The notes under the pieces: model-generated
What the model was told of the DNA's origin: nothing
Seen by the model: the letters and a program-made list of their open reading frames with translations, nothing else
Databases searched by the model: none
Made by a program: the position numbers and the translations under genes
Shown here: one piece after another, positions 1,009 to 26,323 of the stretch
Layout of the letters: every line of letters starts with the position of its first letter
Position numbering within the stretch: the first letter of the stretch is position 1
From: Burkholderia sp. USMB20
GTDB taxonomy: Bacteria > Pseudomonadota > Gammaproteobacteria > Burkholderiales > Burkholderiaceae
DNA length: 64,000 nt
Assembly: GCF_000949135.2 (NCBI RefSeq)
Contig: NZ_JTAN02000018.1
Location: 186,001 to 250,000, forward strand
Direction: 5' to 3'

Positions 1009-1022
1009 TTATCGAATGATAA
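1009..1022. promoter_or_regulatory. Palindromic operator candidate TTATC-N4-GATAA
   Basis: The sequence TTATCGAATGATAA has 5-bp inverted arms around four bases and sits 29 bases before the ATG at 980 of the FixJ-type regulator. The same arms and spacing occur twice in tandem at 10374-10402, before the VOC/monooxygenase operon. That makes it a candidate binding site for a regulator shared by both, possibly the FixJ-type protein itself. The binding protein is not known from the sequence. Confidence 0.5.
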
Positions 1023-1080
1023 ACCGAGAAAAGTCCGGGCGGACACGCCGGCGCGCGCGGCATGACGGCGGACGCGCCGC

Positions 1081-1452
1081 TCACGCGGGCGGTGTGCCGG
1101 ATGCGACCTGATCGATCAGGTCGAGCAGGTCGTCCGATGGAAACGGCTTGCGCAGGAACGCGACCGCGCCTTGCGCGAGCGCCCGGCGGACCGACTCGTC
1201 GTCGCCGTGCGCCGACATCAGGATGACCGGCAGCGCCGCGTTGCGCTGCACCAGCAGGCGCTGGACGTCGAGACCGCCCATCCCTTTCATCTTCAGGTCG
1301 AGCAGCACGCACGCCGCGTCGTCCAGCGGGCCGGTCGCGAGAAATTCCTCGCCCGACTCAAACGGCAATGCGGTATGGCCCGCCGATTTCAGCAGGCTGG
1401 CAAGACTCTTTCGGACCGACGCATCGTCATCGATGATGCAAACAAGGGCCAT
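1081..1452 (-). CDS. Stand-alone receiver-domain response regulator
   Basis: A 123-residue CheY-like protein made of a receiver domain and nothing else. The acidic residues DDD (8-10), phospho-acceptor D52 in LLDLKM, S80 and K102 in RKPF are all present, so it should accept phosphate. It has no output domain; such proteins act in phosphorelays, as phosphate sinks or by binding a partner. It lies about 100 bases from each neighbour, between the winged-helix/ATPase regulator and the FixJ-type regulator. With that FixJ protein it gives the single nearby sensor two possible receivers. The stretch before the ATG is AT-rich with a weak ribosome-binding site, so it may have its own promoter. Confidence 0.9.
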   Translation of the reverse strand: MALVCIIDDDASVRKSLASLLKSAGHTALPFESGEEFLATGPLDDAACVLLDLKMKGMGGLDVQRLLVQRNAALPVILMSAHGDDESVRRALAQGAVAFLRKPFPSDDLLDLIDQVASGTPPA

Positions 1453-1553
1453 GAAATAAAAACCTAAATGGTGTCAATCGAGGTGAGCGCCGTGCGGTTC
1501 ATGCCGCATCGACAGGCGCCGCCGCTGCGCGCCAGGTCCGCGCAGCCCGGCAG

Positions 1554-3023
1554 TCACGCCCACGATCCGGCGACCGGCGCGGCCGGCCCCGGCTGCAGCG
1601 CGTCCGCGTGCGGGTCGGCCGCAAACGACGCGCGGCGCGCGTGGAGACGCCCGGCTTCGCCCGATTCCGCCAGCTTCTCGAGCGCATACGCGCGCACGAC
1701 CTCGAGCAGCGAGTAGCGCTTCGACAGTCCGACCGAATGAACGACCAGCAGCGATTTCGACGCCAGGCTGACGAGACAGTCCAGCACCTCGTCCGCACCC
1801 AGTTCGGTGCAGGCGGCCAGCGCGCAGGCCGCGTCGAGCCGGAACGCATCCGGAAACACCGCGAGACGGCACAGCACGGTGCGCTCCATCTCGTCGAGCA
1901 GCCGATAGCTCCACTCGATGGTGGCCCTGAGCGTCTGCTGGCGCGGGTGCGCCGTGCGCAGGCCGCCGGACAGCGACAGCACCGACTTGTCGAGATCCGC
2001 CGCCAGCCCCTGGATGCCGAGCGACGCGACACGGGCCGCGCCGAGCTCGAGCGCGAGCGGCAGGCCGCTCAGGCGGCGGCAGAGGGTTGCGATCGCGTCG
2101 AGCGTCTTCGCGTCCGCCGGAAGATCCGTACCCATCGCGCGCGCGCGCGCCAGGAACATCCGGACCGCGCCGCTCGCGACGATGTCGTCGGCGTTCGCGC
2201 CGGCCGGCGGCAACGACAGCGGCCCGACGCGATAGACCCGCTCGCCCGCCACCCGCAACGGCTCCCGGCTCGTCACGACGAGTATCGCGCCCGGGTTCGC
2301 GTCCGCGATCGCTTCGCTCAGGTCGGCCAGTTCGTCGACGTACTGCTCGGCGTTGTCGAACACGAGCACGACGCGCTGCTCGCCGATCGCCCGGACGACG
2401 TCGGCGGGCCCCGCGCCCGGGCCGCCCGGCAGGTCGAACGCGTCCAGCACCGCGCACGCCAGGGTCGCGTCGGCCCGCAGGCCGGCCAGGTCGACCCGGA
2501 CCATCTCGATCCCGTGCGCCGCCGACCAGGCCGTCGCGACCTCCAGCGCCAGATGCGTCTTGCCGACGCCGCCGGGGCCGACCAGCGTGACGAGCGCCTC
2601 GCGATCGAGCAGCCCGTGCAGCTCGGCCGCTTCCGGCTCCCGGCCAATCATCGGACATTTGCGCGGCGTAGCACTCGCGCGGACACTGCCTGCCGAGTCG
2701 AACGCGAGCGGCGGGCGATCGCCGTGCGCATGGTCGGCCGGCGGCGCGAGCCGGTAGCCGCGGCCCGATTCGGTCCGGATCCATCCGTGCTTGCCGCCGA
2801 ACAGCTTGCGCAGCGTCGAGACGTGGACCTGGATGTTGTTCTCGACCACGATCGTGTTCGGCCACACGGCCTGCATGATCTCGTCCTTCGACACGAGCCG
2901 GCCGGCCGCCTTCACCAGCAGTTCGAGGATCTCGAACGCCCGGGCGCCGATATACCGGGGCTGCCCGTCGACACAGACTTCGCGGCATTCAAGGGAAACC
3001 GTCACCCGTCCGAACGTGTACAT
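1554..3023 (-). CDS. Winged-helix/NB-ARC-type ATPase transcriptional regulator, short form
   Basis: A 489-residue regulator. Residues 1-92 form an OmpR/CadC-type winged helix, ending in the usual GRGYRL. An ATPase of the AfsR/MalT-like P-loop class follows, with Walker A GPGGVGKT at about 149-156, a Walker B-like LVFDNAEQ, and the late motif GLPLALELGAAR. It is closely related to the product of 29173-32076, which has the same two domains plus about 450 more residues of helical repeats. This copy stops soon after the ATPase, with a loose Ala/Pro-rich tail, so it lacks the usual sensor half. The ATG at 3023 is preferred over a GTG at 3032. It is divergent from the giant sensor gene, and the shared gap probably holds both promoters. 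The ligand and targets cannot be told from sequence. Confidence 0.85.
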   Translation of the reverse strand: MYTFGRVTVSLECREVCVDGQPRYIGARAFEILELLVKAAGRLVSKDEIMQAVWPNTIVVENNIQVHVSTLRKLFGGKHGWIRTESGRGYRLAPPADHAHGDRPPLAFDSAGSVRASATPRKCPMIGREPEAAELHGLLDREALVTLVGPGGVGKTHLALEVATAWSAAHGIEMVRVDLAGLRADATLACAVLDAFDLPGGPGAGPADVVRAIGEQRVVLVFDNAEQYVDELADLSEAIADANPGAILVVTSREPLRVAGERVYRVGPLSLPPAGANADDIVASGAVRMFLARARAMGTDLPADAKTLDAIATLCRRLSGLPLALELGAARVASLGIQGLAADLDKSVLSLSGGLRTAHPRQQTLRATIEWSYRLLDEMERTVLCRLAVFPDAFRLDAACALAACTELGADEVLDCLVSLASKSLLVVHSVGLSKRYSLLEVVRAYALEKLAESGEAGRLHARRASFAADPHADALQPGPAAPVAGSWA

Positions 3024-3379
3024 GATCCGCACTCGCTTATGCTGCCTGCCACCTCGCGCCGCCTCGCGAGGCGACGCGCTCCTGGGTTGCCCGTCCGGCC
3101 ATGCCGATGCATGCCGGGAGGCGTGACCGTATCGTAGGTCTCAACCGGCGCCGCGAATATTATCCATAGGTTTAAGTCCGGCCCCGACTTCCGCCGGGGC
3201 GCGAGGGCGCAGAGGTACTGCAAAATCCCGCGGGCTGTCGGACAATGCACGGGTCGCGGCCCGAACGCGCGCGACCGAGCCCGGCCGATCCCGCATCGCG
3301 AGCCGCTTCCACCCTCCTCCACCCAGCCCGCCGCCCCACCGTGAATCAGCCCTTGCGTAACCCGGACGACACGAACCGA
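3024..3379. other. Divergent intergenic region between regulator and sensor
   Basis: About 350 bases separate the two divergent starts. An AT-rich patch at roughly 3152-3176 (around ATATTATCCATAGG) is the best place for promoters. The rest could code for an Arg/Pro-rich extension of the sensor, if translation began at the ATG at 3245 or the GTG at 3341. Nothing else is recognised. Confidence 0.4.
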
Positions 3380-6300
3380 ATGGATGCCGAATGGCTCGCG
3401 CGTGCCCGCCTGTCGAACGTGGTGCGTTCGGGCGACGTCCTGACATTCGACCTGACCGACCGCGCGACGGGGCGCGTGTGGCCGGCGTGCCAGACCGGCT
3501 GGGAATTCGACCAGCGCTGCCGGCAGTTCGAGCAGGAACATGCGTTGAACGGGATCCTGGACCCGGCCTGGGCGCTCTTGCCGGTGGCGCTGATCCGCGC
3601 GGCCGACGGCCCGGTGCTCGTTCATCCGCGCGTGGACGTGCGTGCGTTCGACACGCTGACCGACGGCCGGCTGCCGCTTGACGCCTTTCTCGAAACGGCG
3701 ATCGGCGCCGCCCGCACGCTCGGAGAACTGCATCGGCGCGGCTGGCTGCATGGCGATCTCCAGCCGGCCAGTTTCGTCATCGCACCGGACGGCACCGTCA
3801 TGCTCCGCTCGTTCGCCCATGCCCGGGAGCGCGCGACGAAACAGGCGGCGGACCGCACGATGCGCACGGATTTCGCCGCGTACGCCGCGCCGGAAGTCTC
3901 GGCAGGCACGTGTGTCGACGAGCGCGCCGACCTGTACGCGTTCGGCATCACGCTGTTCCGCCTGCTGACGGGCGCGATGCCTTACAAGGCCGCGTCGACG
4001 TCCGACTGGGTCCACGCGCACGTCGCGATCAAACCGTCGCCGCCCGCGGCGTTTCGCGGCGACGTGCCCGCCATCCTGAACGATCTGATCCTGAAGCTGA
4101 TCGCCAAGGAACCCGCCGATCGCTACCCGTCCTGTGAAGCGGTGCAGCACGATCTCGAACGGATCCTGCACGACTGGCTCGCCGCGGGGCGCGTCGAGCC
4201 CTTCGCGCTCGGCGGCCGCGATCCGTTCGCCGGTCTGCACACGCTCGACCTGCCGGTCGGCCGCGACGCGGAAATTCATCTGCTCGAGGGGATCCTGGAG
4301 ACCGTCACGCGCACCGGCGAGTCGGCCGTCGTGCTGGTCGGCGGACCGGCAGGCGTCGGCAAGACCGCGCTCGCCGAACACTTCGTGCGTCATGCGCGCG
4401 CCGCGTCGCGCACCGCCTGGTTCGCGTCGGCCACGGTCGACCGGTTCCAGCCCGCGCGGCCGTATGCGGCCGTGCTGCAGGCGCTGCGCACGCTGTTCGG
4501 CAGCGCGCTGGCGAGGCGCGACGACGAAATCGCGGCGATCGCCGCGCGGCTGCGCGACTGCGTGGGCCGGCAGGCCAGTCTTCTTGCGGCGATCTTCCCG
4601 GAAACCGGGTGGCTGCTCGACGTCGAGCCCGTCGCGTTCGACCCGACCGATGCGATTCCCGAATTCCATCTGTGCCAGATCGTCGTGAATGCATTCCGCG
4701 CGTTCGCGGCGCCGGGCGAGCCGCTCGTCATGACTCTGGACGACATCCAGTGGGCCGACGACGCGACGCTCGCGTTCCTCGCATCGATCGCGCTCGATCC
4801 GCCGGCCCATGTCTGCATCGTCGCCAGCTATCGGAGCGGGCCGCCGCATGACGACGCGCCGGCGTTCCGGCGCCTGCGCGAGCAGCTCGATCGCGCCCGC
4901 GTCGCGTCGCTGACGCTGGCACCGCTCGACACGCCCGACGTCACGCGCATGCTCGCCGGCATGCTCGGCGAGGCGCCGGCCCGCTTGTCCGGGCTCGGCG
5001 ACATCGTTCATCGCAGGACGGGCGGCAATCCGTTCTACATCCAGCAGCTGCTGCGCACGCTGATCGACGAGCAGCTGCTCGGCTACGATCCGGTGCGGCA
5101 AGCGTGGCAATGGAATGCGGACGACATCGAGGCGCGCCACGAGACCGAGAACGTCGTGAGCCTGCTCGCGGTCCGGATGCAGCGCTTGCCGCACGAAACG
5201 CGAACGCTGCTGGCGCTGATGGCCTGTATCGGCATCGACATCGACGAAGCGCTGTTGCGCGCGGCCGCCGACAAAACGCTGGCCGAACTCCGCTTCTGGC
5301 TGGACCCGGCGCGCCGGATGGGTCTCGTGTCGCTCTCCGGCGACCGCTGGCGCTTCGCTCACGACCGCATCCTCGAGGCCGTCTACGCACTCACGGGGCG
5401 CCCGGAGCGCGCGCTGCGCCACGCCCGGATCGCCGCCGCGATGCTCGCGCGCGTGAACCCGCCGTCACCCGAATCCTTGCTGGCGCTCGCCGCCCAGATC
5501 GAACTGGCGCAAGGCGTGCCGCTCGACGACACGCTCGCGCTCGCATACGCGGGTGCGCTCGCCGACGCCGCGGAGGCCGCGGCCACGGCCGCCGCGCGCG
5601 ATCGTGCGTTGTCGTTTCTTGCGTCGGCACAATCGCTGCTCGGCCCGCATGCGTGGTCGCAACACTACGGCCTCGCCAGCCGGATCGGCATCCTGCGCAG
5701 CGGCCTGCTGCTCGCGACCGGCGAAACCGCACAGGCGTCCGACGCAATCGACACGCTCATGGCGCGTACGCGCACGCCCGCCGACCGCGCCGAGGCGCAT
5801 CGGCTGAAGGCCGCGCAGCTCACGGTGGAGGCGCACTACCGGCAAGCCATCGACGTCGCGCTGGCCGGGCTGGCGCTGCTCGGCGTCGAACTGCCGGCCG
5901 AGCCGTCCGAAGCCGATCTCGAGGCGGCCTGCGATGCGGTGCGCGCGGCGCTCGATGGCCGCGCCATCGCCGACCTGGTCGACCTGCCCGTGATGACCGA
6001 CACGCGCGTCGAAGCCACGATGGCGCTGCTGACCGCGCTCGAGGCCGCGATGTTCTATCCGAGCGGTGGGCTGATGCTGCTCCATTTCGCGACGATGGTG
6101 CGGCTGACGCTGCGCCACGGTGTCACTGCCGCGTCGGTACAGGGGCTCGCGTGGTACGGCGTCAGCATCGCCGAGCACCACGACGCGTATGAAGACGGCT
6201 TCGAATTCGCGAAGGTCGCGCTCGCGCTGGTCGATCGCCACGGCTTCGAACGCTATCGCTCCGCCACGCTGATCGCGCTCGACCAGGTGAGCGTCTGGAC

Positions 6301-8464
6301 CCAGCCGCTCACCTATGCACTCGAACGCGCGCGCGAGGCGAAAGCGGCGGGCAATGCGAGCGCCGAGCTGCGCTGGATGTGCTACAGCTGCAACCACATC
6401 GTCAGCGATCTGTTGTCGATGGGCGAGGCGCTGCCCGCGATTCGCGACGAAATCGACCCACTGCTGGAGATCGCGCGCGGCGCACGCTACGACGACATCG
6501 TCGATCTCGTCTCCACCCAGTCGGAATTCATCGACGCGCTGCAGTTCGGCCAGGACCGGATGATCGGCACGTGGCGTGCGCGTGCCTCGACCCGGACCCC
6601 GATGTCGGTCCTGGCGTTCTGGACCGACGTGCTCGCCGGCCGGGCGGCCTTCATCTTCGGCGACGCGGCGACGGCGCGCGCATCGCTCGATGCGGCCGCG
6701 TCGAGCGCATGGTCGACGCCCGCGCACATCATGCTTGCCGATTTCCACCTGTTCAGCGTGCTGGCCGGGATCGCGTGCGACGACGGCGCAACGCCGCCCG
6801 AACGCATGCTCGAACGCTTCGCGCCCCAGCGCGCCCGCTTCGCGGTGTGGAGCGAGCGAAATCCCGGAACGTTTCTCAACAAGCTCGCGCTGATCGATGC
6901 CGAGTTCGCGCGCGTGCGCGGCGAGCACGTGGTCGCGATGCAGCAGTACGAAACGTCGGCCAGCCTCGCGGCGGAACACGGCTTTGTGCACGAACAGGCG
7001 CTCGCGCACGAGCGGGCCGCGCAGCATGCCGCGTCGCTCGGGCTCGCCGGCCAGGCCCGTCATCAGTTGCGGCTCGCCCATGCGTGCTACCGGCGCTGGG
7101 GCGCGACCGGCAAGACGCGGGCGATGGAAGCGCAGCATCCGTTCCTCGTGATGGATCCGTCGCCGGGCGGCCCGGCCGCGCCCGCGCGCGAGGATCTCGA
7201 TTTCGCGCTCGCGATGCGTGCCGCCCATTCGTTGTCCGAAGAAATCGTGCTCGAGCGCCTGATCCAGACGCTGATGCGCAACATGCTCGTGTACGCCGGC
7301 GCCCGCTATGGCCTGCTGCTGCTCAACCGGCGCGACCGGCTGACCATCGAAGCGGTGGCGCGCATCGCGGGCAGCGACGTGATCGTCGACATCGCGCGCA
7401 GCGAACCCACCGAACAGGATGTGCCGCTGTCGATCCTGAACACCGTCGCGCGCACGCGCAAGCCGATCGTGCTCGAGAATGCGCAGCGCGACGGCGTTCC
7501 CGATCACGTCGACAGCCTGCGCGCGCACCCGACGCGCTCGCTGTTCTGCCTGCCGCTGTTGAAACAGGGCGCGCTGGTCGGCGTGCTGTATCTCGAGAAT
7601 GCGCTGAGCAACGGCGTGTTCTCGCCGCGGCGCATCGCGATGCTGGAAGTGCTCGCGCCGCAGGCGGCCAACGCGCTCGAATCCGCGCGGCTTTACGCGG
7701 AGCTGATCGACGAGAACGCGCGCCGGGTCGAGACCGAGGCCGCGCTGCGGCACGCGCGCACCGAGCTCGCGCGCACCGCGCACATGACGGTGATGGGTGA
7801 ACTCGCCGCGTCGATCGCGCACGAGATCAATCAGCCGCTGACGAGCATCGTGTCGAGCGCCGGCGCGGGCATGCGCTGGTTGCGCGGCCCGCAACCCGAT
7901 CTCGGCGAGGCGCTCGCGAGCCTGGACGACATCCGTGCATCCGGCGTGCGCGCGGCCGACATCGTCCGCGCGTTGCGATCGCTCGCGCGCCAAACGCCGC
8001 CCGCGCTGGCGCCGGTCGCGATCGACGACCTGATTCGCGACATGCTGCGTCTCACCGAAACGGAAATCGACGCGAAGCAGGTGGTGCTGCGCGTCGACCT
8101 GCACTGCGACGGCGTGCGCGCGATGGCCGACCGCACCCAGATCCAGCAGGTGATCCTCAACCTCGTCACCAATGCACTCGACGCGATGGACGGACTCGTC
8201 GCGCCGCGCGAGCTCGAGATCGCCTCGCAGGTCGAGGACGGCCATGCGGTCGTCCGCATCGCCGACCGCGGCGCCGGCATCGATGCGGACATCGCGAATC
8301 GCATCTTCGATCCGTTCTTCACGACGAAGTCGCACGGCATGGGGATGGGCCTCGCGATCTGCCGTTCGATCATCGAGGCGCATGGCGGCACGCTCGAAGC
8401 GGCGCCGCGCGACGGGCACGGTACCGTGATGACGTTCCGGCTGCCGGTTTCGGCGCCCCGTTGA
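3380..8464 (+). CDS. Hybrid sensor: (pseudo)kinase + AAA ATPase + GAF + histidine kinase
   Basis: A giant sensor of about 1694 residues, of the type annotated as trifunctional Ser/Thr kinase/ATPase/sensor histidine kinase. Residues 1-280 have a protein-kinase fold, but the Gly-rich loop and ion-pair Lys are not visible, HRD is HGD (about 124-126), and DFG is replaced by SFA, so phosphotransfer there is doubtful. The APE motif survives. An AAA/STAND ATPase follows, with Walker A GGPAGVGKT near 321 and Walker B LDDIQWADD near 451. A long helical-repeat region leads to a GAF domain (about 1280-1440). The histidine-kinase core has its phospho-His in AHEINQPL near 1480 and N-box and G-box motifs at 1587-1680 (NLVTNALDAM, DPFFTTK). 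There is no clear membrane segment, so it is probably cytosolic. The start is uncertain: the ATG at 3380 begins conserved-looking protein, but no strong ribosome-binding site is seen. The two receivers at 294 and 1081 are its likely partners. Confidence 0.88.
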   Translation: MDAEWLARARLSNVVRSGDVLTFDLTDRATGRVWPACQTGWEFDQRCRQFEQEHALNGILDPAWALLPVALIRAADGPVLVHPRVDVRAFDTLTDGRLPLDAFLETAIGAARTLGELHRRGWLHGDLQPASFVIAPDGTVMLRSFAHARERATKQAADRTMRTDFAAYAAPEVSAGTCVDERADLYAFGITLFRLLTGAMPYKAASTSDWVHAHVAIKPSPPAAFRGDVPAILNDLILKLIAKEPADRYPSCEAVQHDLERILHDWLAAGRVEPFALGGRDPFAGLHTLDLPVGRDAEIHLLEGILETVTRTGESAVVLVGGPAGVGKTALAEHFVRHARAASRTAWFASATVDRFQPARPYAAVLQALRTLFGSALARRDDEIAAIAARLRDCVGRQASLLAAIFPETGWLLDVEPVAFDPTDAIPEFHLCQIVVNAFRAFAAPGEPLVMTLDDIQWADDATLAFLASIALDPPAHVCIVASYRSGPPHDDAPAFRRLREQLDRARVASLTLAPLDTPDVTRMLAGMLGEAPARLSGLGDIVHRRTGGNPFYIQQLLRTLIDEQLLGYDPVRQAWQWNADDIEARHETENVVSLLAVRMQRLPHETRTLLALMACIGIDIDEALLRAAADKTLAELRFWLDPARRMGLVSLSGDRWRFAHDRILEAVYALTGRPERALRHARIAAAMLARVNPPSPESLLALAAQIELAQGVPLDDTLALAYAGALADAAEAAATAAARDRALSFLASAQSLLGPHAWSQHYGLASRIGILRSGLLLATGETAQASDAIDTLMARTRTPADRAEAHRLKAAQLTVEAHYRQAIDVALAGLALLGVELPAEPSEADLEAACDAVRAALDGRAIADLVDLPVMTDTRVEATMALLTALEAAMFYPSGGLMLLHFATMVRLTLRHGVTAASVQGLAWYGVSIAEHHDAYEDGFEFAKVALALVDRHGFERYRSATLIALDQVSVWTQPLTYALERAREAKAAGNASAELRWMCYSCNHIVSDLLSMGEALPAIRDEIDPLLEIARGARYDDIVDLVSTQSEFIDALQFGQDRMIGTWRARASTRTPMSVLAFWTDVLAGRAAFIFGDAATARASLDAAASSAWSTPAHIMLADFHLFSVLAGIACDDGATPPERMLERFAPQRARFAVWSERNPGTFLNKLALIDAEFARVRGEHVVAMQQYETSASLAAEHGFVHEQALAHERAAQHAASLGLAGQARHQLRLAHACYRRWGATGKTRAMEAQHPFLVMDPSPGGPAAPAREDLDFALAMRAAHSLSEEIVLERLIQTLMRNMLVYAGARYGLLLLNRRDRLTIEAVARIAGSDVIVDIARSEPTEQDVPLSILNTVARTRKPIVLENAQRDGVPDHVDSLRAHPTRSLFCLPLLKQGALVGVLYLENALSNGVFSPRRIAMLEVLAPQAANALESARLYAELIDENARRVETEAALRHARTELARTAHMTVMGELAASIAHEINQPLTSIVSSAGAGMRWLRGPQPDLGEALASLDDIRASGVRAADIVRALRSLARQTPPALAPVAIDDLIRDMLRLTETEIDAKQVVLRVDLHCDGVRAMADRTQIQQVILNLVTNALDAMDGLVAPRELEIASQVEDGHAVVRIADRGAGIDADIANRIFDPFFTTKSHGMGMGLAICRSIIEAHGGTLEAAPRDGHGTVMTFRLPVSAPR

Positions 8465-8480
8465 TACCGGCCGATGCGTG

Positions 8481-8516
8481 GCAGCGGCTGCGGCTGCGGC
8501 AGCGGCAGCGGCTGCG
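8481..8516. repeat. GCAGCG/GCTGCG short tandem repeat
   Basis: Six copies of a hexamer alternating between GCAGCG and GCTGCG fill the gap between the convergent ends of the sensor gene and the FAD reductase gene. The two variants are complementary to each other, so the tract can also fold back on itself and might serve as a weak bidirectional terminator. No T-run follows. Confidence 0.5.
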
Positions 8517-8531
8517 CCGGCATCGCACGGC

Positions 8532-9803
8532 TCAGGTTGCGCGCGGCCGGTGCGCGTCCTCGCCGAGGAACCGGTGCACGAAGGTCACGGCCATCGCGCC
8601 TTCGCCGACCGCCGACGCCACCCGCTTGACCGACCCCGACCGGACGTCGCCCGCCGCGAACGAACCGGGCACGCTCGTTTCCAGATGGTAGGGCCGGCGC
8701 TCGAGCGGCCACACGCGCTCGAACCCGGGACAGTCGTACAGGTCGCTGCCGGTGACCAGGTAGCCGCCCGCGTTGCGGATGATGTCCGTGTCCCTCGCCC
8801 ATTCGGTGTTCGGCGCACCGCCGATGCAGACGAACAGGTGCGTGGCCGGCAGCACCTCGCGCGCGCCGTCGTCCGAGCGCAGCACGATCGCTTCGAGGCG
8901 GCCGTCGCCGTGGAGCGCGTCGACATTCGAGCGGTACCGGACCGTCACGTTCGGCGTGCGCTCGATCCGGTCGACCAGGTAATGCGACAGCGTTGCCGCC
9001 AGCGATGCGCCGCGCACGATCATCGTGACTTCGCGTGCGTGCCGCGCGAAATTCATCACGGCCTGGCCCGCCGAGTTGCCGCCGCCGACGATGAACACGT
9101 GCTTGCCTTCGCACATCGGCGCCTCGCTCGAACCCGCGCCGTAGAACAGGCCGGCGTTGAGAAACCGCTGTTCGTCGGGCAGGCCGAGGCTGCGATATTC
9201 GATCCCGGTCGCGCAGATGTTCGTGCGCGCGGTCAGGATCGATCCGTCGGCCAGGTCGACGCGAATCTTGCCGTCGACGAACGTCGCGTGCACGCCCTCG
9301 CGCATCATCAGCAGCTCGACGCCGAATTTCACGGCCTGCTGGCGCGCCCGCTCGGCCAGCTCGGCCCCCGGAATGCCGTCCGGAAACCCCATGTAGTTCT
9401 CGATCATCGAACTCGTTCCCGCCTGCCCGCCGATCGCGTCGCGCTCGATCACGACGGCGCGCAGCCCTTCCGACGCCGCATAGACGGCCGCCGACAGGCC
9501 GGCCGGACCGGCGCCGTAGATCGACACGTCGTACTCGACGAAGCGCGGCCGGGCGACCCAGCCGAGCTTCGCGGCGATCTCCGGCAGCGTCGGCTGGTAG
9601 AGGCACGTGCCGTCCGGGAAGACCACGGCCGGCAGCCGGAGGTCGGCGAGCGGCGCGATGCCCAGTTCGCGCATGCAGTCGGTGTCGGACCTCAGTTCGC
9701 ACCACGCGTACTCGACCACGCCGCGCTTCAGGAAATCGCGAATTGCATAGGCTTCCTTGCTGTTCGGCAAGCCGATGACCTTGACATGCTGAGACTGCGT
9801 CAT
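8532..9803 (-). CDS. Glutaredoxin-like / thioredoxin-reductase-like FAD protein without CxxC
   Basis: A 423-residue fusion. Residues 1-82 resemble a thioredoxin/glutaredoxin fold: an LPAVVFPDG cis-Pro-like stretch is present, but GLPNSKE stands where CPYC would be. Residues 91-415 are an FAD/NAD(P)H pyridine-nucleotide oxidoreductase, with FAD-binding YGAGPAGLSAA at 96-106, NAD(P)H-binding VGGGNSAGQA and the final GSFAAGDVR. The redox-active CATC of thioredoxin reductases is replaced by GTSS (129-132). It therefore cannot act as a normal dithiol reductase; a ferredoxin/flavodoxin-reductase-like or FAD-only oxidoreductase role is more likely. I start at the ATG at 9803, which follows GGGAGGG; the upstream in-frame stretch to 9929 looks non-coding. 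It is divergent from the zinc-finger gene at 10010. Confidence 0.87.
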   Translation of the reverse strand: MTQSQHVKVIGLPNSKEAYAIRDFLKRGVVEYAWCELRSDTDCMRELGIAPLADLRLPAVVFPDGTCLYQPTLPEIAAKLGWVARPRFVEYDVSIYGAGPAGLSAAVYAASEGLRAVVIERDAIGGQAGTSSMIENYMGFPDGIPGAELAERARQQAVKFGVELLMMREGVHATFVDGKIRVDLADGSILTARTNICATGIEYRSLGLPDEQRFLNAGLFYGAGSSEAPMCEGKHVFIVGGGNSAGQAVMNFARHAREVTMIVRGASLAATLSHYLVDRIERTPNVTVRYRSNVDALHGDGRLEAIVLRSDDGAREVLPATHLFVCIGGAPNTEWARDTDIIRNAGGYLVTGSDLYDCPGFERVWPLERRPYHLETSVPGSFAAGDVRSGSVKRVASAVGEGAMAVTFVHRFLGEDAHRPRAT

Positions 9804-10009
9804 GAATCCCTCCCGGTAAGCGCACTGCCGCGTTTCGTGTCGGCCGCACTGGCGACTGTACGTCCTCGTCGCCTTCGCGCTGCCGCGGTTAACAAGAATT
9901 AAGGTCGGCGCGCGCCGTGTGCCGTCCACAATGAAGCCCGTTCACCTCCGCTTGCAGCGTCGTGCCGGCCGCGCTGCGAGCACCTGCGGCGCCGGCATCG
10001 GAGCGAAAG

Positions 10010-10282
10010 ATGACTACCACCTGCAGTCACCTCGGCGAAGCGCGCGTCCTGGATACCGACAAGGACTACTGCGAGGAGTGCGTGAAGTCCGGCAGCCGGT
10101 GGGTGCATCTGCGCCTGTGCCTGAGCTGCGGGCAAGTCGGTTGTTGCGACTCGTCGCCGAATCGCCACGCGAGCCGGCATTTCCACGAAACCGGCCATCC
10201 GCTCGCCCGTTCGATCGAGCCGGGCGAGCGCTGGGTATGGTGCTACGCGGACGAAGTCATGGCCGGCGAAATCGCGTCGTAG
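10010..10282 (+). CDS. UBP-type zinc-finger protein
   Basis: A 90-residue protein made almost entirely of a UBP (BUZ/PAZ-like) zinc finger. Candidate zinc ligands are C5, H7, C21, C24, C37, C40, C45, H53, H57, H59 and H63, which fits the family pattern of a compact finger with several metal sites. In eukaryotes this domain binds the free C-terminus of ubiquitin. Bacterial stand-alone versions are widespread but their role is not established, and no ubiquitin system is seen here. The ATG at 10010 is chosen because GGAGCG lies just upstream. It is divergent from the FAD reductase gene with about 200 bases between, so the two may be co-controlled. Confidence 0.85.
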   Translation: MTTTCSHLGEARVLDTDKDYCEECVKSGSRWVHLRLCLSCGQVGCCDSSPNRHASRHFHETGHPLARSIEPGERWVWCYADEVMAGEIAS

Positions 10283-10373
10283 CGCATCGCGCGCCGGCAT
10301 CCGGCACCCATTTCCACTGCGGGTAAACACCGCTCGATCGCGGCTTTGTCCTGCCGATCTTTTCCACTAGAAT

Positions 10374-10402
10374 TTATCGAACGATAACTTATCGACTGAT
10401 AA
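10374..10402. promoter_or_regulatory. Tandem palindromes TTATC-N4-GATAA before the catabolic operon
   Basis: Two copies, TTATCGAACGATAA (10374-10387) and TTATCGACTGATAA (10389-10402), lie head to tail with centres 15 bases apart, just before the ribosome-binding site GAGGTG and the ATG at 10417. The first copy is a perfect palindrome apart from its two central bases. A third copy lies at 1009-1022, before the FixJ-type regulator. The position, close to the start codon, suggests an operator overlapping the promoter. The binding protein is unknown. Confidence 0.6.
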
Positions 10403-10416
10403 ACACGAGGTGTCCC

Positions 10417-10899
10417 ATGCCTGTATCCAGACTTGCGCACTACTCGATCCGCACGCTCGATCTCGAGAAATCGTGCCGGTTCTATGAACGCGTGCTCGGC
10501 TTCAAACGCGGCTATCGTCCGCCGTTCGACTTTCCGGGCGCATGGCTCTACAAGGGCGGCGACGAAGCCGATTACGGCACCGTGCACATCATCGGCGTCG
10601 ATCCGTCCAATCCGGACGGCCTTGCCGCCTATCTCGGCGACAAGGCGCTGCCGGCCACCGGCACGGGCACCGTCGACCACATCGCGTTCCTCGCGACCGG
10701 CGTCGAAGCCATGTGGGGCACGCTGCGCGCCGAGAACGTGCCGTGGCGCGACCGCACGGTGCCGAGCCTCGGGCTGCATCAGATCTTCATCGAGGATCCG
10801 TCCGGCGTGACGATCGAACTCAACTTCCCTGCCGCCGAGGTCGAGGGCCTCGCGCTTCCCGACGCGGCCGCATCGGCCGGCGCATCCACCGGAGACTGA
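10417..10899 (+). CDS. VOC (glyoxalase/dioxygenase fold) protein
   Basis: A 160-residue vicinal-oxygen-chelate protein with the two expected beta-alpha-beta-beta-beta halves: RLAHYSIRTLDLEKS and YERVLGF at the start, VDHIAFLA and IELNFP in the second half. Candidate metal ligands are H8, the His of VDHIAF and the Glu of IELNFP. The family includes glyoxalases, extradiol dioxygenases and isomerases, so a ring-cleavage or isomerase step is possible but not shown. Its stop is one base before the start of the monooxygenase at 10901, so the two are co-transcribed. The operon begins right after the tandem palindromes at 10374-10402. Confidence 0.85.
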   Translation: MPVSRLAHYSIRTLDLEKSCRFYERVLGFKRGYRPPFDFPGAWLYKGGDEADYGTVHIIGVDPSNPDGLAAYLGDKALPATGTGTVDHIAFLATGVEAMWGTLRAENVPWRDRTVPSLGLHQIFIEDPSGVTIELNFPAAEVEGLALPDAAASAGASTGD

Positions 10900-12221: not shown

Positions 12222-12581
12222 GTGAACCACCCGCTTCCGGCCACCGCCGGCACCGCGCCCGACCTGGATTCGCCGCCGCAGGCCATGCATCCGCTGCTGC
12301 GCGACGCCCGTTTTCGCACGCTCGTCAGGCGCAGAAGGCTGCTCGCCTGGTCGCTGACGCTCGTCATGCTCACCCTCTATTTCGCGTTCATCCTGACGCT
12401 CGCGTTTTCGCCGGCGCTGCTCGGCCAGCCGATCGTGCCGGGCCGGCCGACGCCATGGGGCATCCCGGTCGGCTTCGGCATGTTCGTCGTCACGTTCGCG
12501 CTCGTCGCGCTGTACGTATTCCAGGCCAATTCGGTCCACGACGCGCTCGTCGCGTCCCTTCGTCACGGAGACACGCCATGA
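12222..12581 (+). CDS. DUF485 small membrane protein, symporter partner
   Basis: A 119-residue inner-membrane protein with two hydrophobic segments (about residues 45-70 and 85-108) after a Pro/Ala-rich start. DUF485 proteins are usually encoded just before ActP-type solute:sodium symporters and are thought to help them. Here the stop overlaps the symporter ATG in an ATGA junction (12578-12581), which implies translational coupling. A ribosome-binding site GAGGAG lies before its ATG. Confidence 0.88.
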
Positions 12582-14224
12582 AACGCCTGCTCCTCGCCGC
12601 GATCGCCGCCGCTGGGACGGCACCGGCGTTCGCGGCCGGCCCCGCGGCGATCGCACACGGGCACAACCCGGTCGCGATCGGCATGTTCCTGCTGTTCGTC
12701 GCGTCGACGCTCGTCATCACGCGCTGGGCCGCGCGCAAGAATCACAGCGTGGCCGACCACTATGCGGCCGGCGGCCGGATCACCGCGTTCCAGAACGGCT
12801 GGGCGATCGCCGGCGACTACATGTCCGCGGCATCGCTGCTCGGCATTTCCGCGCTGGTGTTCACGAGCGGCTACGACGGCCTGATCTATTCGGTCGGCTT
12901 TCTCGCGAGCTGGCCGATCATCCTGTTCCTGATCGCCGAGCCGCTGCGCAACCTCGGCAAGTACACGCTCGCCGACGTCGTGTCCTATCGCCTGCGGCAA
13001 CGGCCGATCCGCGCGTTCGCGGCGTCGAGCTCGATCGTCATCGTGCTGCTGTATCTCGTGTCGCAGATGGTCGGCGCGGGCAAGCTCGTCGAACTGCTGT
13101 TCGGTCTCGACTACACGGTCGCGGTGCTCGTCGTCGGCGTGCTGATGGTCGTCTACGTATTCTTCGGCGGGATGCTCGCGACCACCTGGATCCAGATCAT
13201 CAAGGCCGTGCTGCTGCTCGCCGGCGCGGCGTTCATGGCGTTCATGGTGCTCGGCCGTTTCGGATTCAGCCTCGACGCACTGTTCGCGCAGGCAGTCAGC
13301 GTGCATCCGAAGCATGCGGCGATCCTGCGTCCGGGCGGCCTGGTCTCCGATCCGGTCTCCGCCGTGTCGCTCGGCCTCGCGCTGATCTTCGGCACGGCGG
13401 GCCTTCCGCACATCCTGATGCGCTTCTTCACGGTCGGCGACGTCAAGGCTGCCCGCAAGAGCATCCTCCATGCGACCGGCATCGTCGGCGTCGGCTACGT
13501 GCTGATCGTGATCATCGGCTTCGGCACCATCGCGCTCGTCGCGCCGGACCCGCAATACCACGACGCGTCCGGCGCCGTGACGGGCGGCGCGAACATGGTG
13601 GCGATCCACCTCGCGCACGCGGTCGGCGGCAACGTGTTCCTCGGCTTCATCTGCGCGGTCGCGTTCTCGACCATCCTCGCCGTGGTCGCCGGACTCACGC
13701 TCGCGGGCTCGTCGGCGATCTCGCACGATCTCTACGCGAACGTGCTGCGCCGCGGACGCGCATCCGACCAGGAGGAAATGCGCGTGGCGCGCGCGACGAC
13801 CGTGGTGCTCGGCGTGCTCGCGATCCTGCTCGGCATCGCGTTCGAGAAGCAGAACATCGCGTTCATCGTCAGCCTCACGTTCTCGATCGCGGCGAGCTCG
13901 AACTTTCCGGTGCTGCTGCTCTCGATCTACTGGCGCGGGCTCACGACGCGCGGCGCGGTGCTCGGCGGCCTGCTCGGGCTCGCCACCGCCGTCACGCTCA
14001 CGGTGCTGAGCCCGACGGTGTGGGTGACGGTGCTCGGTCATGCGCATGCGGTCTATCCGTACGAATACCCGGCACTGTTCTCGATGGCGGCGGCGTTCGC
14101 CGGCGTCGTCCTGTTCTCCGTCACCGATCGCTCGGCCCGCGCGCGACACGAGCGTGCGCAGTTCGACACCCAGCTCGTCGCGTGCGAAATGGGCACCACA
14201 ACGGGCACCACACAACGCGGCTGA
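12578..14224 (+). CDS. ActP-like solute:sodium (monocarboxylate) symporter
   Basis: A 548-residue SSS-family transporter with a cleavable-looking signal ([19 protein letters not shown]) and about 13 membrane segments. Typical features are [32 protein letters not shown] and [13 protein letters not shown], all close to acetate/glycolate permease ActP. In this family Na+ drives uptake of short carboxylates. In this setting, between ring hydroxylases and an ACMSD-like amidohydrolase, it more likely imports the aromatic acid or a breakdown product (inference). It is translationally coupled to the DUF485 gene. The next gene starts about 30 bases later. Confidence 0.88.
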
Positions 14225-14253: not shown

Positions 14254-15399
14254 ATGAGACATCCCACGTTGACCTGCACCTGCTGCCCGTCGCCGGCCCG
14301 GCGACGCCTGCTCGGCACGTTCGCCGCGCTCGCCGGCACGGCCTTGGCCGGCCGTTCGGCACCGGCTGCCGCAACCGCGAGCACGCCGGCCGCATCGGCC
14401 ACCGCGCCGCTGCAGCGGCCGCGCGCGATCGACATCCACGCGCACTACTACCCGGAAAGCTTTTGCAATCTGGTCGGCGGCGAAGGCAAGCGCTTCGGCG
14501 GGTCGTTCACGTGCGACGACGCGTCGTTCACGTTCCGCACGCCCGCCGGCGGCCTCGGGCCGCTGCCGATGAAGTTCATCGACGTCGACGCGCGGCTGCG
14601 GGACATGGATGCGTCCGGTGTCGACGTCCAGGCGCTGTCGCTCAGCGTGCCGATGGCGTACTGGGCCGACCGGCCGTTCAATGCGAAGCTCGCGCGCGAC
14701 TGGAACTCGGCCGCGTCGCGCGTCTACGAGCGGCATCCGACGCGCTTCGTCGTACTCGCGACGCTGCCGATGCTGAACGCGACCGACGCGATCGACGAAC
14801 TCGAGCGCGCCGCGCAGCTGCCGGGCGTGCGCGGCGTGTACATGGGCACCAACATCGACAATCGCGATCTCGACGACCCGTCGTTCGCACCGGTCTTCGC
14901 GCGCATCGAGCAACTGAACCTGCCCGTGTTCCTGCATCCGCAGCAAACGGTCGGCGGCGCACGGCTCGGCGATTTCTACCTGAGCAACCTGCTCGGCAAT
15001 CCGTTCGACACGGCGATCGCGGCCGCGCACCTGATCCTCGGTGGCGTGCTCGACCGCCATCCGGACCTGCACTTCACGCTGCCGCATGCCGGCGGCGCGT
15101 TGCCGATCGTCGCGGGGCGCCTCGACGCGGGCTGGACCGTGCGCCCCGAAACGCGCCGGCTCGCGCAGAAGCCCAGCAGCTATCTGCGGCGCTTCAGCTA
15201 CGACACGGTGTCCCACTCCGGGCCGGTGCTGGACTTCCTGATCGCGAACGTCGGCATCGACCGGCTCGTGCTCGGCAGCGACTACTGCTTCGACATGGGT
15301 TACGAACAACCGGTCCGCTTTCTCGACCGGCTCGACCTGAGCGCGGCCCAGCGCGCGCAGATACTCGGCGGCAATGCGGGGAAGCTGCTGCGGATCTAG
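14254..15399 (+). CDS. Tat-exported amidohydrolase 2 (ACMSD-like decarboxylase/hydrolase)
   Basis: A 381-residue metal-dependent TIM-barrel enzyme of the amidohydrolase 2 family. Metal-binding motifs are visible: IDIHAHYYPESF (HxH near residue 60), FLHPQQ, LPHAGGALP and the late Asp in VLGSDYCF. The family holds decarboxylases such as ACMSD, gamma-resorcylate decarboxylase and the 3,6-dihydroxypicolinate decarboxylase PicC, as well as hydrolases. The N-terminus has ARRRLLGTFAALAGTALAG, a twin-arginine signal, so the enzyme probably works folded in the periplasm or is membrane-anchored, which is uncommon for decarboxylases of this group. It sits between the symporter and monooxygenase B. The start at 14254 gives the complete signal. 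Confidence 0.83.
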   Translation: MRHPTLTCTCCPSPARRRLLGTFAALAGTALAGRSAPAAATASTPAASATAPLQRPRAIDIHAHYYPESFCNLVGGEGKRFGGSFTCDDASFTFRTPAGGLGPLPMKFIDVDARLRDMDASGVDVQALSLSVPMAYWADRPFNAKLARDWNSAASRVYERHPTRFVVLATLPMLNATDAIDELERAAQLPGVRGVYMGTNIDNRDLDDPSFAPVFARIEQLNLPVFLHPQQTVGGARLGDFYLSNLLGNPFDTAIAAAHLILGGVLDRHPDLHFTLPHAGGALPIVAGRLDAGWTVRPETRRLAQKPSSYLRRFSYDTVSHSGPVLDFLIANVGIDRLVLGSDYCFDMGYEQPVRFLDRLDLSAAQRAQILGGNAGKLLRI

Positions 15400-15555: not shown

Positions 15556-16680
15556 ATGAAGATAGCCATTGCCGGCGGGTCGATCGCCGGTCTCGCAACC
15601 GCGTTGACGCTCGATTGCATCGGGCACGACGTGACGGTCTACGAGCGCTCGCCGTCGCCGCTGCGTGGCCAGGGCGGCGGCGTGGCCGTGCTGCGCCGGA
15701 TGATGGCGTTTCTCGAACAGCATGGCCGTCATTGCCGGCAGGCGCTCAGCGTGCCGACCCGTCGGCGACGCTGGATCGACCGCGCCGGCATCGTCACGCG
15801 CGACGAACCCGAAATGCTGCCGTTCTCGTCGTGGGACGCCGTCTACCGCTCGCTGTGCGAGACGCTGCCGCACGGACGCATCCGTTATGGCCGCGCGGTC
15901 AGCGGCTTCGAGCAGGATGCCGACGGGGTCGACGTGCACCTGGGCGACGAGCGCATCCGCGCGGACGTGCTGATCGCCGCCGACGGCGCGGGCTCGAGCC
16001 TGCGCACGCGCCTGTTTCCCGACCATGCGCCGTCGTTCGCCGGCTACCTCGCGTGGCGCGGCATCGTCGACGAAGCCGGCTTCGAGCCCGCCGCGATCGC
16101 GCCTCTGGTCGAGAACATGACGCTACACAAGGCGCCGGGCGAACTGTTCATGGCGTTCCTGATTCCGGCGCTCGACGGCTCGCTCGCGCCGGGCACGCGC
16201 CGCTTCAACTGGCTCTGGTATCGCAACGAAGCCAATCGCGCCGCGCTGCGCCGCCACCTGACCGACCGGAACGGCAACGTCCATCATGCGTCCGTGCACC
16301 CCGGCATGCTTGCCGACGAGACCGTTGCGTCGCTGCGGCAACTGGCGCAAGAACGCTTGCCGGCATCGCTGTCGCAGCTGGTGCTCGCGACACGCGCGCC
16401 GTTCAACCAGGCGATCTTCGACGTGCTGAGCCCCAACTTCGCCGACGGTCGCGTCGCACTGGTCGGCGATGCGGCCTGCACCGTGCGCCCGCATACGGCG
16501 TCCGGCACATCGAAGGCGGCGGCCGATGCCGTGTCGCTCGCGCAAGCGCTGCCGGCAGACGCGGCCGATGTCGTCGCGCGCCTCGCGCAATGGTCGGCGC
16601 GGCGGCGCGAGGACGTGACCGCGTTGCTCGAGAAAGGGCCGCAACTCGCCGCATCGTTCGGCCTCGGCTCGCCGCGCTGA
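15556..16680 (+). CDS. FAD-dependent aromatic hydroxylase (paralogue B)
   Basis: A 374-residue flavin monooxygenase starting MKIAIAGGSIAGLA, with the DG motif in IAADGAGSSLRTRLF and GD in VALVGDAACTVRPH. The GGSIAGL signature and YLAWRGIVDE place it with the dihydroxypyridine-monooxygenase-like group. It is strikingly similar to paralogue C at 22521 (shared RRRRWIDRAG, LPFSSWD, GELFMAF), so one is a duplicate of the other, while paralogue A is more distant. A ribosome-binding site GCAGG is only a few bases from the ATG at 15556. A cytosolic NAD(P)H/O2-dependent ring hydroxylation is expected. The substrate is unknown. Confidence 0.87.
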   Translation: MKIAIAGGSIAGLATALTLDCIGHDVTVYERSPSPLRGQGGGVAVLRRMMAFLEQHGRHCRQALSVPTRRRRWIDRAGIVTRDEPEMLPFSSWDAVYRSLCETLPHGRIRYGRAVSGFEQDADGVDVHLGDERIRADVLIAADGAGSSLRTRLFPDHAPSFAGYLAWRGIVDEAGFEPAAIAPLVENMTLHKAPGELFMAFLIPALDGSLAPGTRRFNWLWYRNEANRAALRRHLTDRNGNVHHASVHPGMLADETVASLRQLAQERLPASLSQLVLATRAPFNQAIFDVLSPNFADGRVALVGDAACTVRPHTASGTSKAAADAVSLAQALPADAADVVARLAQWSARRREDVTALLEKGPQLAASFGLGSPR

Positions 16681-23716: not shown

Positions 23717-23734
23717 TTATCGATCGATCAATAA
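23717..23734. promoter_or_regulatory. Degenerate relative of the TTATC-N4-GATAA palindrome
   Basis: TTATCGATCGATCAATAA lies about 100 bases before the MFS gene. Its left arm matches the operator candidates at 1009 and 10374, but the right arm reads GATCA at the expected spacing. It may be a weak site or chance, since ATCGAT is itself self-complementary. Confidence 0.25.
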
Positions 23735-23830: not shown

Positions 23831-25048
23831 ATGTCAGCAGAATCCACCCCGCTCGCGCCCCAGGGGCACGCGGCCAAGCTCACGCAGGGCCTCATCCTGC
23901 TGTTCGCGTTCAGTTGCGGCGCGATCGTCGCGAACCTGTACTACGCGCAGCCGATCACCGAACTCATCGCACCCAGCCTGCACATGTCGGGCGAAACCGC
24001 GAGCCTCATCGTGTCGCTGACGCAGATCGGCTACGCGCTCGGCCTATTCTTCATCGTGCCGCTCGGCGACCTGCTCGAAAACCGCAAGCTGATGATCACG
24101 ACCGCCGTCGTGTCGATCGCGAGCCTTGCGGCGGCGGCGATGGTGCATACGCCCGGGCCGTTCCTCGCGATCTCGCTGCTGATCGGCTTCAGCTCGGTCG
24201 CCGTGCAGATCCTGGTGCCGCTTGCCGCGCACCTCGCGCCCGATCATTCCCGCGGCCGCGTGGTCGGCACGATCATGAGCGGGCTGCTGCTCGGCATCCT
24301 GCTCGCGCGCCCGCTGTCGAGCGTGGTGGCCGACGCGTTCGGCTGGCGCTTCGTGTTCGCCGCCGCCGCCGTGCTGATGACGCTCGTGACGGCCGTGCTC
24401 GCGCTGACGATCCCGTCGCGCCAGCCCGATCACCGCGCGACCTATTTCGAACTGATCGGCTCGCTGCTGCATCTGGTCCGCACGATGCCGGTGCTGCGCC
24501 ATCGCGCGTTCTACCAGGGCCTGATGTTCGCGTCGTTCAGCCTGTTCTGGACCGCCGTGCCGGTCGAGCTCACGCGTCACTACGGCCTGTCGCAATCGGC
24601 CATCGGCCTGTTCGCGCTGGTCGGCGCGATCGGCGCGACGTCGGCGCCCGTCGCCGGCCGTCTCGCGGATGCCGGGCACACGGTGCGGGCGACGCTGATC
24701 GCGCTGGTCGCCGGCGCACTGTCGTATGCGGTCGCACTGGTCCACGGTGCCGGGCTGTACGGCCTCGTCGTCACCGGCATCGTGCTCGACTTCGCGGTGC
24801 AGATGAACATGGTGCTCGGCCAGCGCGAGATCTACGCGCTGCATGCGGCGAGCCGCAACCGCCTGAACGCGCTGTACATGACCAGCATCTTCGTCGGCGG
24901 CGCCGTCGGCTCCGCGCTCGCGAGCCCGCTGTACGAGCATGGCGGCTGGCCGCTCGTCGCGGCCGTCGCCGGCGCGTTCCCGATCGTCGCGCTCGCCCAC
25001 TACCTCGTGATCGGGCGGCCGCACGCGCAACGCCACGCCCAGGCTTGA
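23831..25048 (+). CDS. MFS transporter (DHA1-type, 12 membrane segments)
   Basis: A 405-residue major-facilitator protein with about 12 membrane helices. The loop 2-3 signature appears as VPLGDLLENRKLMI, and helix 4-5 features are kept (RGRVVGTIMSGLLLGILLARPLS). The overall look, with VANLYYAQPI near the start, is that of the drug:H+ antiporter 1 group. AAGGAG sits 7 bases before the ATG. It follows monooxygenase C and precedes the Old Yellow Enzyme homologue, so it may export toxic hydroxylated intermediates or move the substrate (inference). Confidence 0.88.
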   Translation: MSAESTPLAPQGHAAKLTQGLILLFAFSCGAIVANLYYAQPITELIAPSLHMSGETASLIVSLTQIGYALGLFFIVPLGDLLENRKLMITTAVVSIASLAAAAMVHTPGPFLAISLLIGFSSVAVQILVPLAAHLAPDHSRGRVVGTIMSGLLLGILLARPLSSVVADAFGWRFVFAAAAVLMTLVTAVLALTIPSRQPDHRATYFELIGSLLHLVRTMPVLRHRAFYQGLMFASFSLFWTAVPVELTRHYGLSQSAIGLFALVGAIGATSAPVAGRLADAGHTVRATLIALVAGALSYAVALVHGAGLYGLVVTGIVLDFAVQMNMVLGQREIYALHAASRNRLNALYMTSIFVGGAVGSALASPLYEHGGWPLVAAVAGAFPIVALAHYLVIGRPHAQRHAQA

Positions 25049-25210: not shown

Positions 25211-26323
25211 ATGTCTACCCTGCTCGGTAACTACGATCTGCGCGGCCTGCCGCTTCCCAACCGTATCGTGATGGGGCCGATGACGCGTTCTCGCGCGCCT
25301 TCGCGCGGCCAGCCGACCGCGCTCATGGCCGAGTACTACGCCCAGCGCGCATCCGCCGGCCTGATCGTCACCGAAGCGACCAACGTCAGCCCGGCCTCCG
25401 CGGCGTTCGAACTGACGCCCGGGCTCGTCACCGACGAGCAGGCGGCCGGCTGGAAACAGGTCACCGACGCAGTTCATGCGAACGGCGGGCGCATCTTCGC
25501 GCAGCTCTGGCACGGCGGCCGGGTCAGCTCGCTGACGCTGCTCGGCGGCGAAGCGCCGCTGTCGCCGTCCGGCGTCAACGACGATCTCGAACAGCTGCAG
25601 GTGTGGGCGCAGTTGCAGAACGGCTACTACACGAAGATTCACGCGACGCCGTCGCGCGCGATGACGACCGACGAGGTCGCCGCGACGGTCGAGGAATTCC
25701 GCCAGGCGACGCTGCGCGCGAAGGCGGCCGGCTTCGACGGCGTCGAGATTCACGCGGCCAACGGCTACCTGCCGCACCAGTTCCTGTCGTCGACGCTGAA
25801 CCGCCGCGACGACCGCTACGGCGGCTCGGTCGCGAACCGCGCGCGCTTTCTCGAGGAAATCGTCGACGCGGTGGGCGGCGTGCTGCCGCTCGATCGCGTG
25901 GGCGTGCGCATCTCGCCGTACGCGAAGTACAACAACGTGCGCGACGCGGATCCGGATGCGACGTACGCCTACGTCGGGCGCATGCTCGACGAAGCCGGCG
26001 TCGCCTATGTACACGCGGCGGACACCAACGGCTGGAGCGGCGAACCCGACCTGCCGCGCATCGTCGCGAACACGCGCAACGCGTATCGCGGCACGCTGAT
26101 CGTCAACGGCGGCATCGCGCCGGAGGCCGCGAATGCGCTGATCGACGCGGGCGACGCCGATCTCGTCGCGTTCGCGCGCGCCTACATCGCGAACCCCGAT
26201 CTCGTCGAGCGCATCGCGGCGAAGGCGCCGCTCGCCGCACCGAAGACGGTCGGCTGGTATGGCGGCGACCGCGCGGGTTATGTCGACTATGCGCGTCATG
26301 ACGCGGCGGGCGTGAACGTTTGA
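25211..26323 (+). CDS. Old Yellow Enzyme family NAD(P)H:flavin oxidoreductase
   Basis: A 370-residue FMN-binding TIM-barrel ene-reductase. The start (LPNRIVMGPMTRSRA) and the substrate-binding pair H/N in EIHAANGYLPHQF are typical, followed by the catalytic-Tyr-bearing NGYL and the phosphate-binding GGI and AFARAYIANP. Such enzymes reduce activated C=C bonds of enones, maleimides or nitro-compounds. In this region it could reduce an unsaturated ring-opened intermediate or detoxify an electrophile. AAAGGAA precedes the ATG. It is the last plus-strand gene of the catabolic region and converges on the HD-fold gene. Confidence 0.92.
   Translation: MSTLLGNYDLRGLPLPNRIVMGPMTRSRAPSRGQPTALMAEYYAQRASAGLIVTEATNVSPASAAFELTPGLVTDEQAAGWKQVTDAVHANGGRIFAQLWHGGRVSSLTLLGGEAPLSPSGVNDDLEQLQVWAQLQNGYYTKIHATPSRAMTTDEVAATVEEFRQATLRAKAAGFDGVEIHAANGYLPHQFLSSTLNRRDDRYGGSVANRARFLEEIVDAVGGVLPLDRVGVRISPYAKYNNVRDADPDATYAYVGRMLDEAGVAYVHAADTNGWSGEPDLPRIVANTRNAYRGTLIVNGGIAPEAANALIDAGDADLVAFARAYIANPDLVERIAAKAPLAAPKTVGWYGGDRAGYVDYARHDAAGVNV

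Follow-up and report, generated by a model that had tools for sequence, protein, structure and literature searches.

In a 64,000-nucleotide stretch of Burkholderia sp. USMB20 (contig NZ_JTAN02000018.1, positions 186,001 to 250,000; hereafter the window, meaning this whole stretch), the palindrome TTATC-N4-GATAA lies before a gene for a FixJ-type response regulator and, as a tandem pair, before an operon that starts with a gene for a VOC-family protein, and a close variant precedes an MFS transporter gene. Our analysis predicts that these palindromes are the operators of one ligand-released TetR/AcrR repressor that controls the VOC operon, the MFS and old-yellow-enzyme (OYE) genes and the FixJ-type gene, a reading to which we assign a probability of roughly 0.87. 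The positions of the sites, their conservation and their co-occurrence with a TetR gene are direct observations, and the TetR gene of the source genome is placed, by inference, outside the 64 kb. The repressor would be of an ordinary kind with an uncommon regulon member, the FixJ-type gene. An operator sequence and a regulon are thereby assigned, from sequence alone, to a TetR subfamily that spans beta-, gamma- and alphaproteobacteria and for which we found no characterized member; the assignment is backed by a natural deletion experiment and corrects a plausible guess of FixJ autoregulation.

Palindromic sites in the window

The candidate operators and the genes and promoter next to them are as follows.

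1009..1022, no strand: single candidate operator TTATCGAATGATAA, with 28 bases between it and the ATG of the FixJ-type gene (980, minus strand)
10374..10387, no strand: candidate operator 1 of the tandem pair TTATCGAACGATAA, an exact match to the pattern that recurs in relatives
10389..10402, no strand: candidate operator 2 of the tandem pair TTATCGACTGATAA, its centre 15 bases from that of operator 1
23717..23730, no strand: third candidate operator TTATCGATCGATCA, starting 114 bases ahead of the MFS start codon
294..980, minus strand: FixJ-type response regulator (receiver and LuxR helix-turn-helix), predicted TetR regulon member
10346..10373, plus strand: sigma-70-like promoter TTGTCC-16-TAGAAT, adjoining the tandem operator
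10417..10899, plus strand: protein of the VOC family (glyoxalase/dioxygenase superfamily), encoded by the leading gene of the putatively controlled operon
23831..25048, plus strand: MFS transporter, predicted regulon member
25211..26323, plus strand: OYE (alkene reductase), the gene directly after MFS

The three exact copies, with tandem centres 15 bases apart, are located where the first-pass annotation of this DNA had placed them, and the window holds no further copy. The annotation had also judged such palindromes rare by chance and named many unrelated genomic copies as one outcome that would refute a shared regulator. None appeared in 100 dinucleotide shuffles of the window, and 12 related genomes (5.8-11.1 Mb) contain 0-5 exact copies each, 32 in total, compared with 8 in total for a reversed-pattern control. 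We assigned 20 of these 32 copies ourselves, 17 to VOC-type operators, 2 to FixJ sites and 1 to a transporter site; the other 12 have no assignment. The shuffles and this rarity rule out a chance origin, and the refuting outcome named in advance did not occur. A reading of the palindromes as terminators or RNA hairpins was likewise set aside, as no terminator-like site occurs in 10200-10500 or 900-1200.

The copy at 23717, previously described as degenerate, does differ from TTATCN4GATAA at one position, but the label does not hold: it conforms to the consensus of the family, TTATCNNNNGAT(A/C)A, and is conserved before MFS, and with a score model built from VOC operators only it reaches 24.6, against 24.8 for the top operator of the window.

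The tandem pair ends 14 bases ahead of the VOC ATG, and a -10-like hexamer followed by the operator is found in the same order in the related loci that carry the site. This location, just after a -10-like box, is that expected of a repressor rather than of an activating response regulator. For the FixJ-type gene, no sigma-70-like promoter match was found in 900-1200.

VOC operators co-occur with one TetR subfamily

To the best 80 of 112 confirmed places from a scan for VOC relatives we added the window and four plasmid loci, giving 85 VOC loci (loci L005 and L086 lack VOC and stand outside this set). A tandem pair, defined as at most 4 mismatches of 20, is present in 58 of the 85, and at least one site, defined as a score of at least 15 within 80 bases upstream of VOC, in 68. 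The sites are conserved in relatives that keep both gene blocks; a lack of such conservation was the other refuting outcome named by the first-pass annotation. The palindrome is single in six Pseudomonas loci, Azohydromonas, Stella and two Rhodospirillales; in the Pseudomonas loci (L054, L056-L058, L060 and L069) it is followed by a conserved A-rich stretch in place of the second site.

A single TetR/AcrR subfamily is found in the locus, genome or plasmid of 66 of the 68 site-bearing VOC loci, the exceptions being genome G003 and the window. The reference for this subfamily was the Paraburkholderia largidicola protein (L002:11204-11929), the copy of Burkholderia pyrrocinia LWK2 is L086:13521-14240, and three members match the TetR_N helix-turn-helix (PF00440) at E 1e-12, 3.9e-11 and 1.5e-13. 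For 54 of the 68 loci the TetR gene lies within the locus itself (E at most 1e-15), and where none is nearby, 11 of the 12 genomes searched (9 titled Burkholderia and 3 others) have it elsewhere. In the five Burkholderia genomes where VOC and TetR share a contig, TetR lies 20-38 kb from the VOC operator, and on plasmid pBPJTT of LWK2 it lies ~28 kb downstream of VOC. The window, probably DNA of Burkholderia cepacia complex type, is largely colinear with pBPJTT up to 38395, where the match stops ~1.4 kb before the pBPJTT TetR gene.

Absence of the site and absence of TetR also tend to go together. Seventeen VOC loci lack a site: in 15 of them TetR is missing from the locus, and whole-genome searches of two of these 15 (G074 and G075) gave no TetR hit, while the remaining two (L062 and L064) do have TetR. 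Among 65 Burkholderia genomes (cut-offs E 1e-60 for VOC and 1e-50 for TetR), 20 have VOC and 21 TetR, with both in 19, VOC alone in 1, TetR alone in 2 and neither in 43 (Fisher test 3e-13, phylogeny ignored). Neither FixJ nor the LysR regulator of the cluster follows the operator in this way: 44 of the 58 tandem loci hold TetR, compared with 3 that hold a FixJ relative (at least 60% identity) and 10 that hold the LysR (at least 60%).

The FixJ-side palindrome is damaged where no intact TetR is found

A close FixJ relative (86-93%) occurs in 13 of the 65 Burkholderia genomes, 7 of which also have VOC, and was not found in 13 of the 20 genomes with VOC. The winged-helix protein and the giant sensor encoded next to it in the window (listed below) were present in all 11 loci fetched around FixJ. 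We compared FixJ-bearing Burkholderia genomes, together with LWK2, BX1 and B. stagnalis YJ-2, by TetR status; the window and G003, both of which keep the FixJ-side site, were left out on account of their own TetR status. All nine records with an intact TetR (G001, G019, G041, G042, G043, G044, G061, LWK2 and BX1) have an intact palindrome, whereas it is damaged or missing in all six in which no intact TetR was found (G040, G052, G053, G064, G015 and B. stagnalis YJ-2). TetR gave no hit in G040, G052, G053 and G064 and carries a frame-shifting deletion in G015; for B. stagnalis YJ-2, searched through plasmid-collection records only, the plasmid is not among the 59 TetR-match records, while for G064, nearly identical to it in the giant-sensor tree, the search covered the genome.

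No fewer than three different lesions affect the site, and FixJ (86-89%) persists in all six damaged-site records, together with the giant sensor (81-83%) and the cluster LysR (90-96%). Conversely, G041 and BX1 lack the VOC block and keep both TetR and the FixJ-side site. On the BX1 plasmid, whose TetR is L203, the whole VOC-FAD-DUF485-ActP-amidohydrolase block is gone between a zinc-finger gene and the next monooxygenase (L201 23952-24019).

Sites outside the VOC promoter

The score model was applied to 19 stretches of 13.9-19.0 kb, from 19 of the 21 TetR-positive Burkholderia genomes (G057 and G015 left out), at a cut-off of 13. It finds a site before MFS in all 18 genomes in which that gene was present; in G068, where MFS was not found in the stretch, a site precedes OYE. 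Three genomes that lack TetR had MFS in the stretch retrieved, and two of them show no site, and the B. cenocepacia plasmid L005, which is outside the TetR-match records, has a weakened one (15.3). Further hits were L241:13134 (15.0), just before OYE, and L252:3073 (23.3), with no assigned gene.

In more distant TetR homologues, two of three counts support a link between operator and recognition helix, and the third, given further below, does not. Among 11 plasmid homologues, hand-picked for spread from the 59 matching records (L206 and L212, clusters of one kind, are not independent), a site scoring at least 14 lies in the 300 bases upstream of 7 of 8 with a TQP recognition helix and of none of 3 with altered helices. 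In the eighth TQP copy, L210 (a Vibrio tubiashii plasmid), two TTATCATTTGATAA sites occur at 5524 and 6592, one inside the TetR homologue gene and one just before a RidA-family gene nearby. A fresh set was drawn from the class of Stella (385 genomes) and that of Pseudomonas veronii (369 genomes). It had 26 loci, of which 4 had already been used (L215-L218), leaving 22 that are not fully independent (the L227 and L239 genes are neighbours, L233 comes from the same genome as L238, and L234 from the same genome as L237). Any site within the ~3.6-kb locus was found for 8 of 11 TQP homologues and 1 of 11 others (p 0.008), a count made after the near-TetR tally given below.

Further sites stand before other genes. 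In Cupriavidus, L004:11633 and 11668 and L020:9643 and 9678 are two extra operator-like sites (17.3 and 16.5) that precede a divergent branched-chain-type ABC transporter operon. In L064 a site at 13235 (17.1; 11.7 at the same position in L062) lies directly before a gene that by eye resembles ureidoglycolate lyase; neither locus has a site at the VOC promoter, and L064 is an alphaproteobacterial VOC locus.

Weighing the TetR assignment against alternatives

Several observations weigh against the assignment to TetR. In the window itself, a search for a TetR of this subfamily yielded nothing beyond matches of 13-57 residues with E values of 0.9 or above, and G003, a fragmented assembly, has VOC and intact sites without a TetR hit; at most 44 candidates per genome were scored in the genome searches, so that a miss is conceivable. 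L062 and L064 have TetR and no site before VOC, the site lying instead at the start of TetR, while G053 has no TetR hit and yet a good MFS site (20.0). Sites near the TetR gene itself count in favor of the assignment and are seen in only part of the loci: most Burkholderia have imperfect sites (11.9-18.8) at about -45, L162 has none, several Cupriavidus have one at about -60 (10.4-17.2) and many Paraburkholderia have none. In the fresh set, the tally made first, of sites within -320..+100 of TetR, gave 4 of 11 TQP homologues and 1 of 11 others (p 0.31), and 6 of 15 and 1 of 11 over all 26 loci. The contrast at the FixJ-type gene goes back to only one or two losses of TetR, since the TetR-lacking records form two weakly joined clades in the giant-sensor tree, with G064 and B. 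stagnalis YJ-2 nearly identical. Finally, the whole -46..-1 region of FixJ, and not the palindrome only, is conserved in the site-bearing set.

This last point also counts for the likeliest of the alternatives, in which the VOC and MFS sites belong to TetR and the FixJ-side palindrome is only a conserved promoter element that resembles them; the hexamers TATCAT and GATAAT within the palindrome could serve as a -10 box. We consider this unlikely. Damage to the palindrome tracks the loss of TetR, through several different lesions and with FixJ persisting, the two records with TetR and without VOC keep it intact, and the FixJ-side palindromes score 23.3-24.0 under a model built without any FixJ site.

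The first-pass annotation had proposed that the FixJ-type protein itself might bind the palindromes and so control both its own gene and aromatic breakdown; it would then activate the VOC operon much as TodT and StyR act in aromatic catabolism. The gene does adjoin one site, the motif is common to the window, LWK2 and other genomes with both FixJ and VOC, and catabolic operons are known to be under FixJ-type regulators that have defined sites, StyR being an example (PMC2442086). The activating site of StyR, however, is reported to lie at about -40, whereas the VOC sites follow the -10-like box. The scarcity of FixJ relatives in the tandem loci, and the damaged sites in all six records that keep FixJ and the giant sensor without an intact TetR found, indicate that FixJ is not the regulator. 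We therefore reject it as the binder on the pattern of TetR loss and site decay, and regard this alternative, autoregulation included, as very improbable. What stands of the proposal is its core, a regulator that the FixJ-type gene and the catabolic operon probably share.

The cluster LysR is the least credible binder of all: although it belongs to the same cluster, is conserved in several Burkholderia loci and would find in TTATCN4GATAA a fit to the T-N11-A LysR box, it is too rare in the tandem loci, persists in all six TetR-lacking records with a damaged FixJ-side site, and would as an activator be unusual in having tandem sites downstream of a -10-like box.

Proposed mechanism and comparison with known systems

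Under the TetR assignment, two dimers would occupy the adjacent sites downstream of the VOC -10 box, covering the transcript start, and would block transcription of the genes for VOC, FAD monooxygenase, DUF485/ActP and amidohydrolase. At MFS/OYE and at the FixJ-type gene the repressor would likewise occupy single upstream sites, until a catabolic ligand, perhaps an N-heterocycle, frees it. Among the neighbors of the family, Mo-hydroxylases, a relative of 2,6-dihydroxypyridine hydroxylase and urate genes, the last beside the Methylobacterium TetR homologue L209, give a weak hint in that direction. By setting the supply of the FixJ-type regulator, TetR may also gate the output of the giant-sensor two-component system by a catabolic metabolite, which would make it a one-component switch nested over a two-component system and gained or lost with TetR; we somewhat favor this view. 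The earlier idea that the giant sensor itself detects a catabolic signal found nothing in our analysis that points to it.

Keyword and text searches of the open-licence literature found no paper on the operator or on a matching TetR/VOC operon, and the operator as text (TTATCNNNNGATAA or TTATCGATCGATAA) had no match in open-licence papers. Among the systems compared, the nearest working analogue is NicR2 of Pseudomonas putida, a TetR-type repressor of nicotine catabolism, with inverted repeats that overlap the -35/-10 motifs of two promoters within a single cluster (PMC6550519). Its effector is the pathway intermediate HSP, which keeps free NicR2 off DNA and in vitro does not release bound NicR2 (PMC6550519). 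In both cases a TetR-type repressor, here a predicted one, is tied to a catabolic cluster for N-heteroaromatics, here a putative one. The NicR2 sites, however, are 20-bp repeats of a different sequence, CTATATGTACAGCCATATAA (PMC6550519), whereas ours are 14-bp sites, and the present system differs in its tandem arrangement at the main promoter, its location downstream of the -10-like box and the inclusion of a response-regulator gene in the predicted regulon. TodS/TodT and StyS/StyR, each a large sensor kinase with a FixJ/LuxR-type regulator for aromatic catabolism, resemble the sensor kinase and FixJ-type regulator that the window encodes next to catabolic genes; they differ in that here the site position and phylogenetic pattern fit a repressor and the evidence is against binding of the shared palindrome by FixJ.

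The nearest DNA-binding domain in the PDB to the subfamily TetR is that of the TetR-family Vibrio proteins LuxR, HapR and SmcR (best E 1.8e-8). The match spans only the ~120 N-terminal residues, and these proteins are master regulators of quorum sensing with a different regulon. The operators of SmcR and LuxR contain half-sites that resemble TTATC/GATAA.

Neighboring genes

The other features of the window are listed below.

1081..1452, minus strand: stand-alone receiver-domain response regulator
1554..3023, minus strand: winged-helix (Trans_reg_C) and ATPase regulator
3380..8464, plus strand: giant sensor with protein kinase-like, AAA_16, GAF and HisKA/HATPase domains, 1694 aa from the chosen start codon
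10901..12127, plus strand: FAD monooxygenase of the PRK07236 type, nearest solved structure 2,6-dihydroxypyridine hydroxylase 2vou (E 4e-52)
12578..14224, plus strand: ActP-type cation/acetate symporter, with a DUF485 gene ahead of it in relatives
14254..15399, plus strand: Amidohydrolase_2 protein
21462-22379: LysR regulator of the cluster

The VOC protein had no match among PDB sequences at E 0.01. After the amidohydrolase, the right-hand block contains a second FAD monooxygenase, cytochrome c and Mo-enzyme genes, LysR, MFS and OYE; the second monooxygenase (15556-16680) is also of the PRK07236 type, so that the cluster has two members of this family. Past the break in colinearity with pBPJTT, the DNA at 38395-64000 partly matches cellulose-synthesis (bcs) clusters of Caballeronia and Burkholderia.

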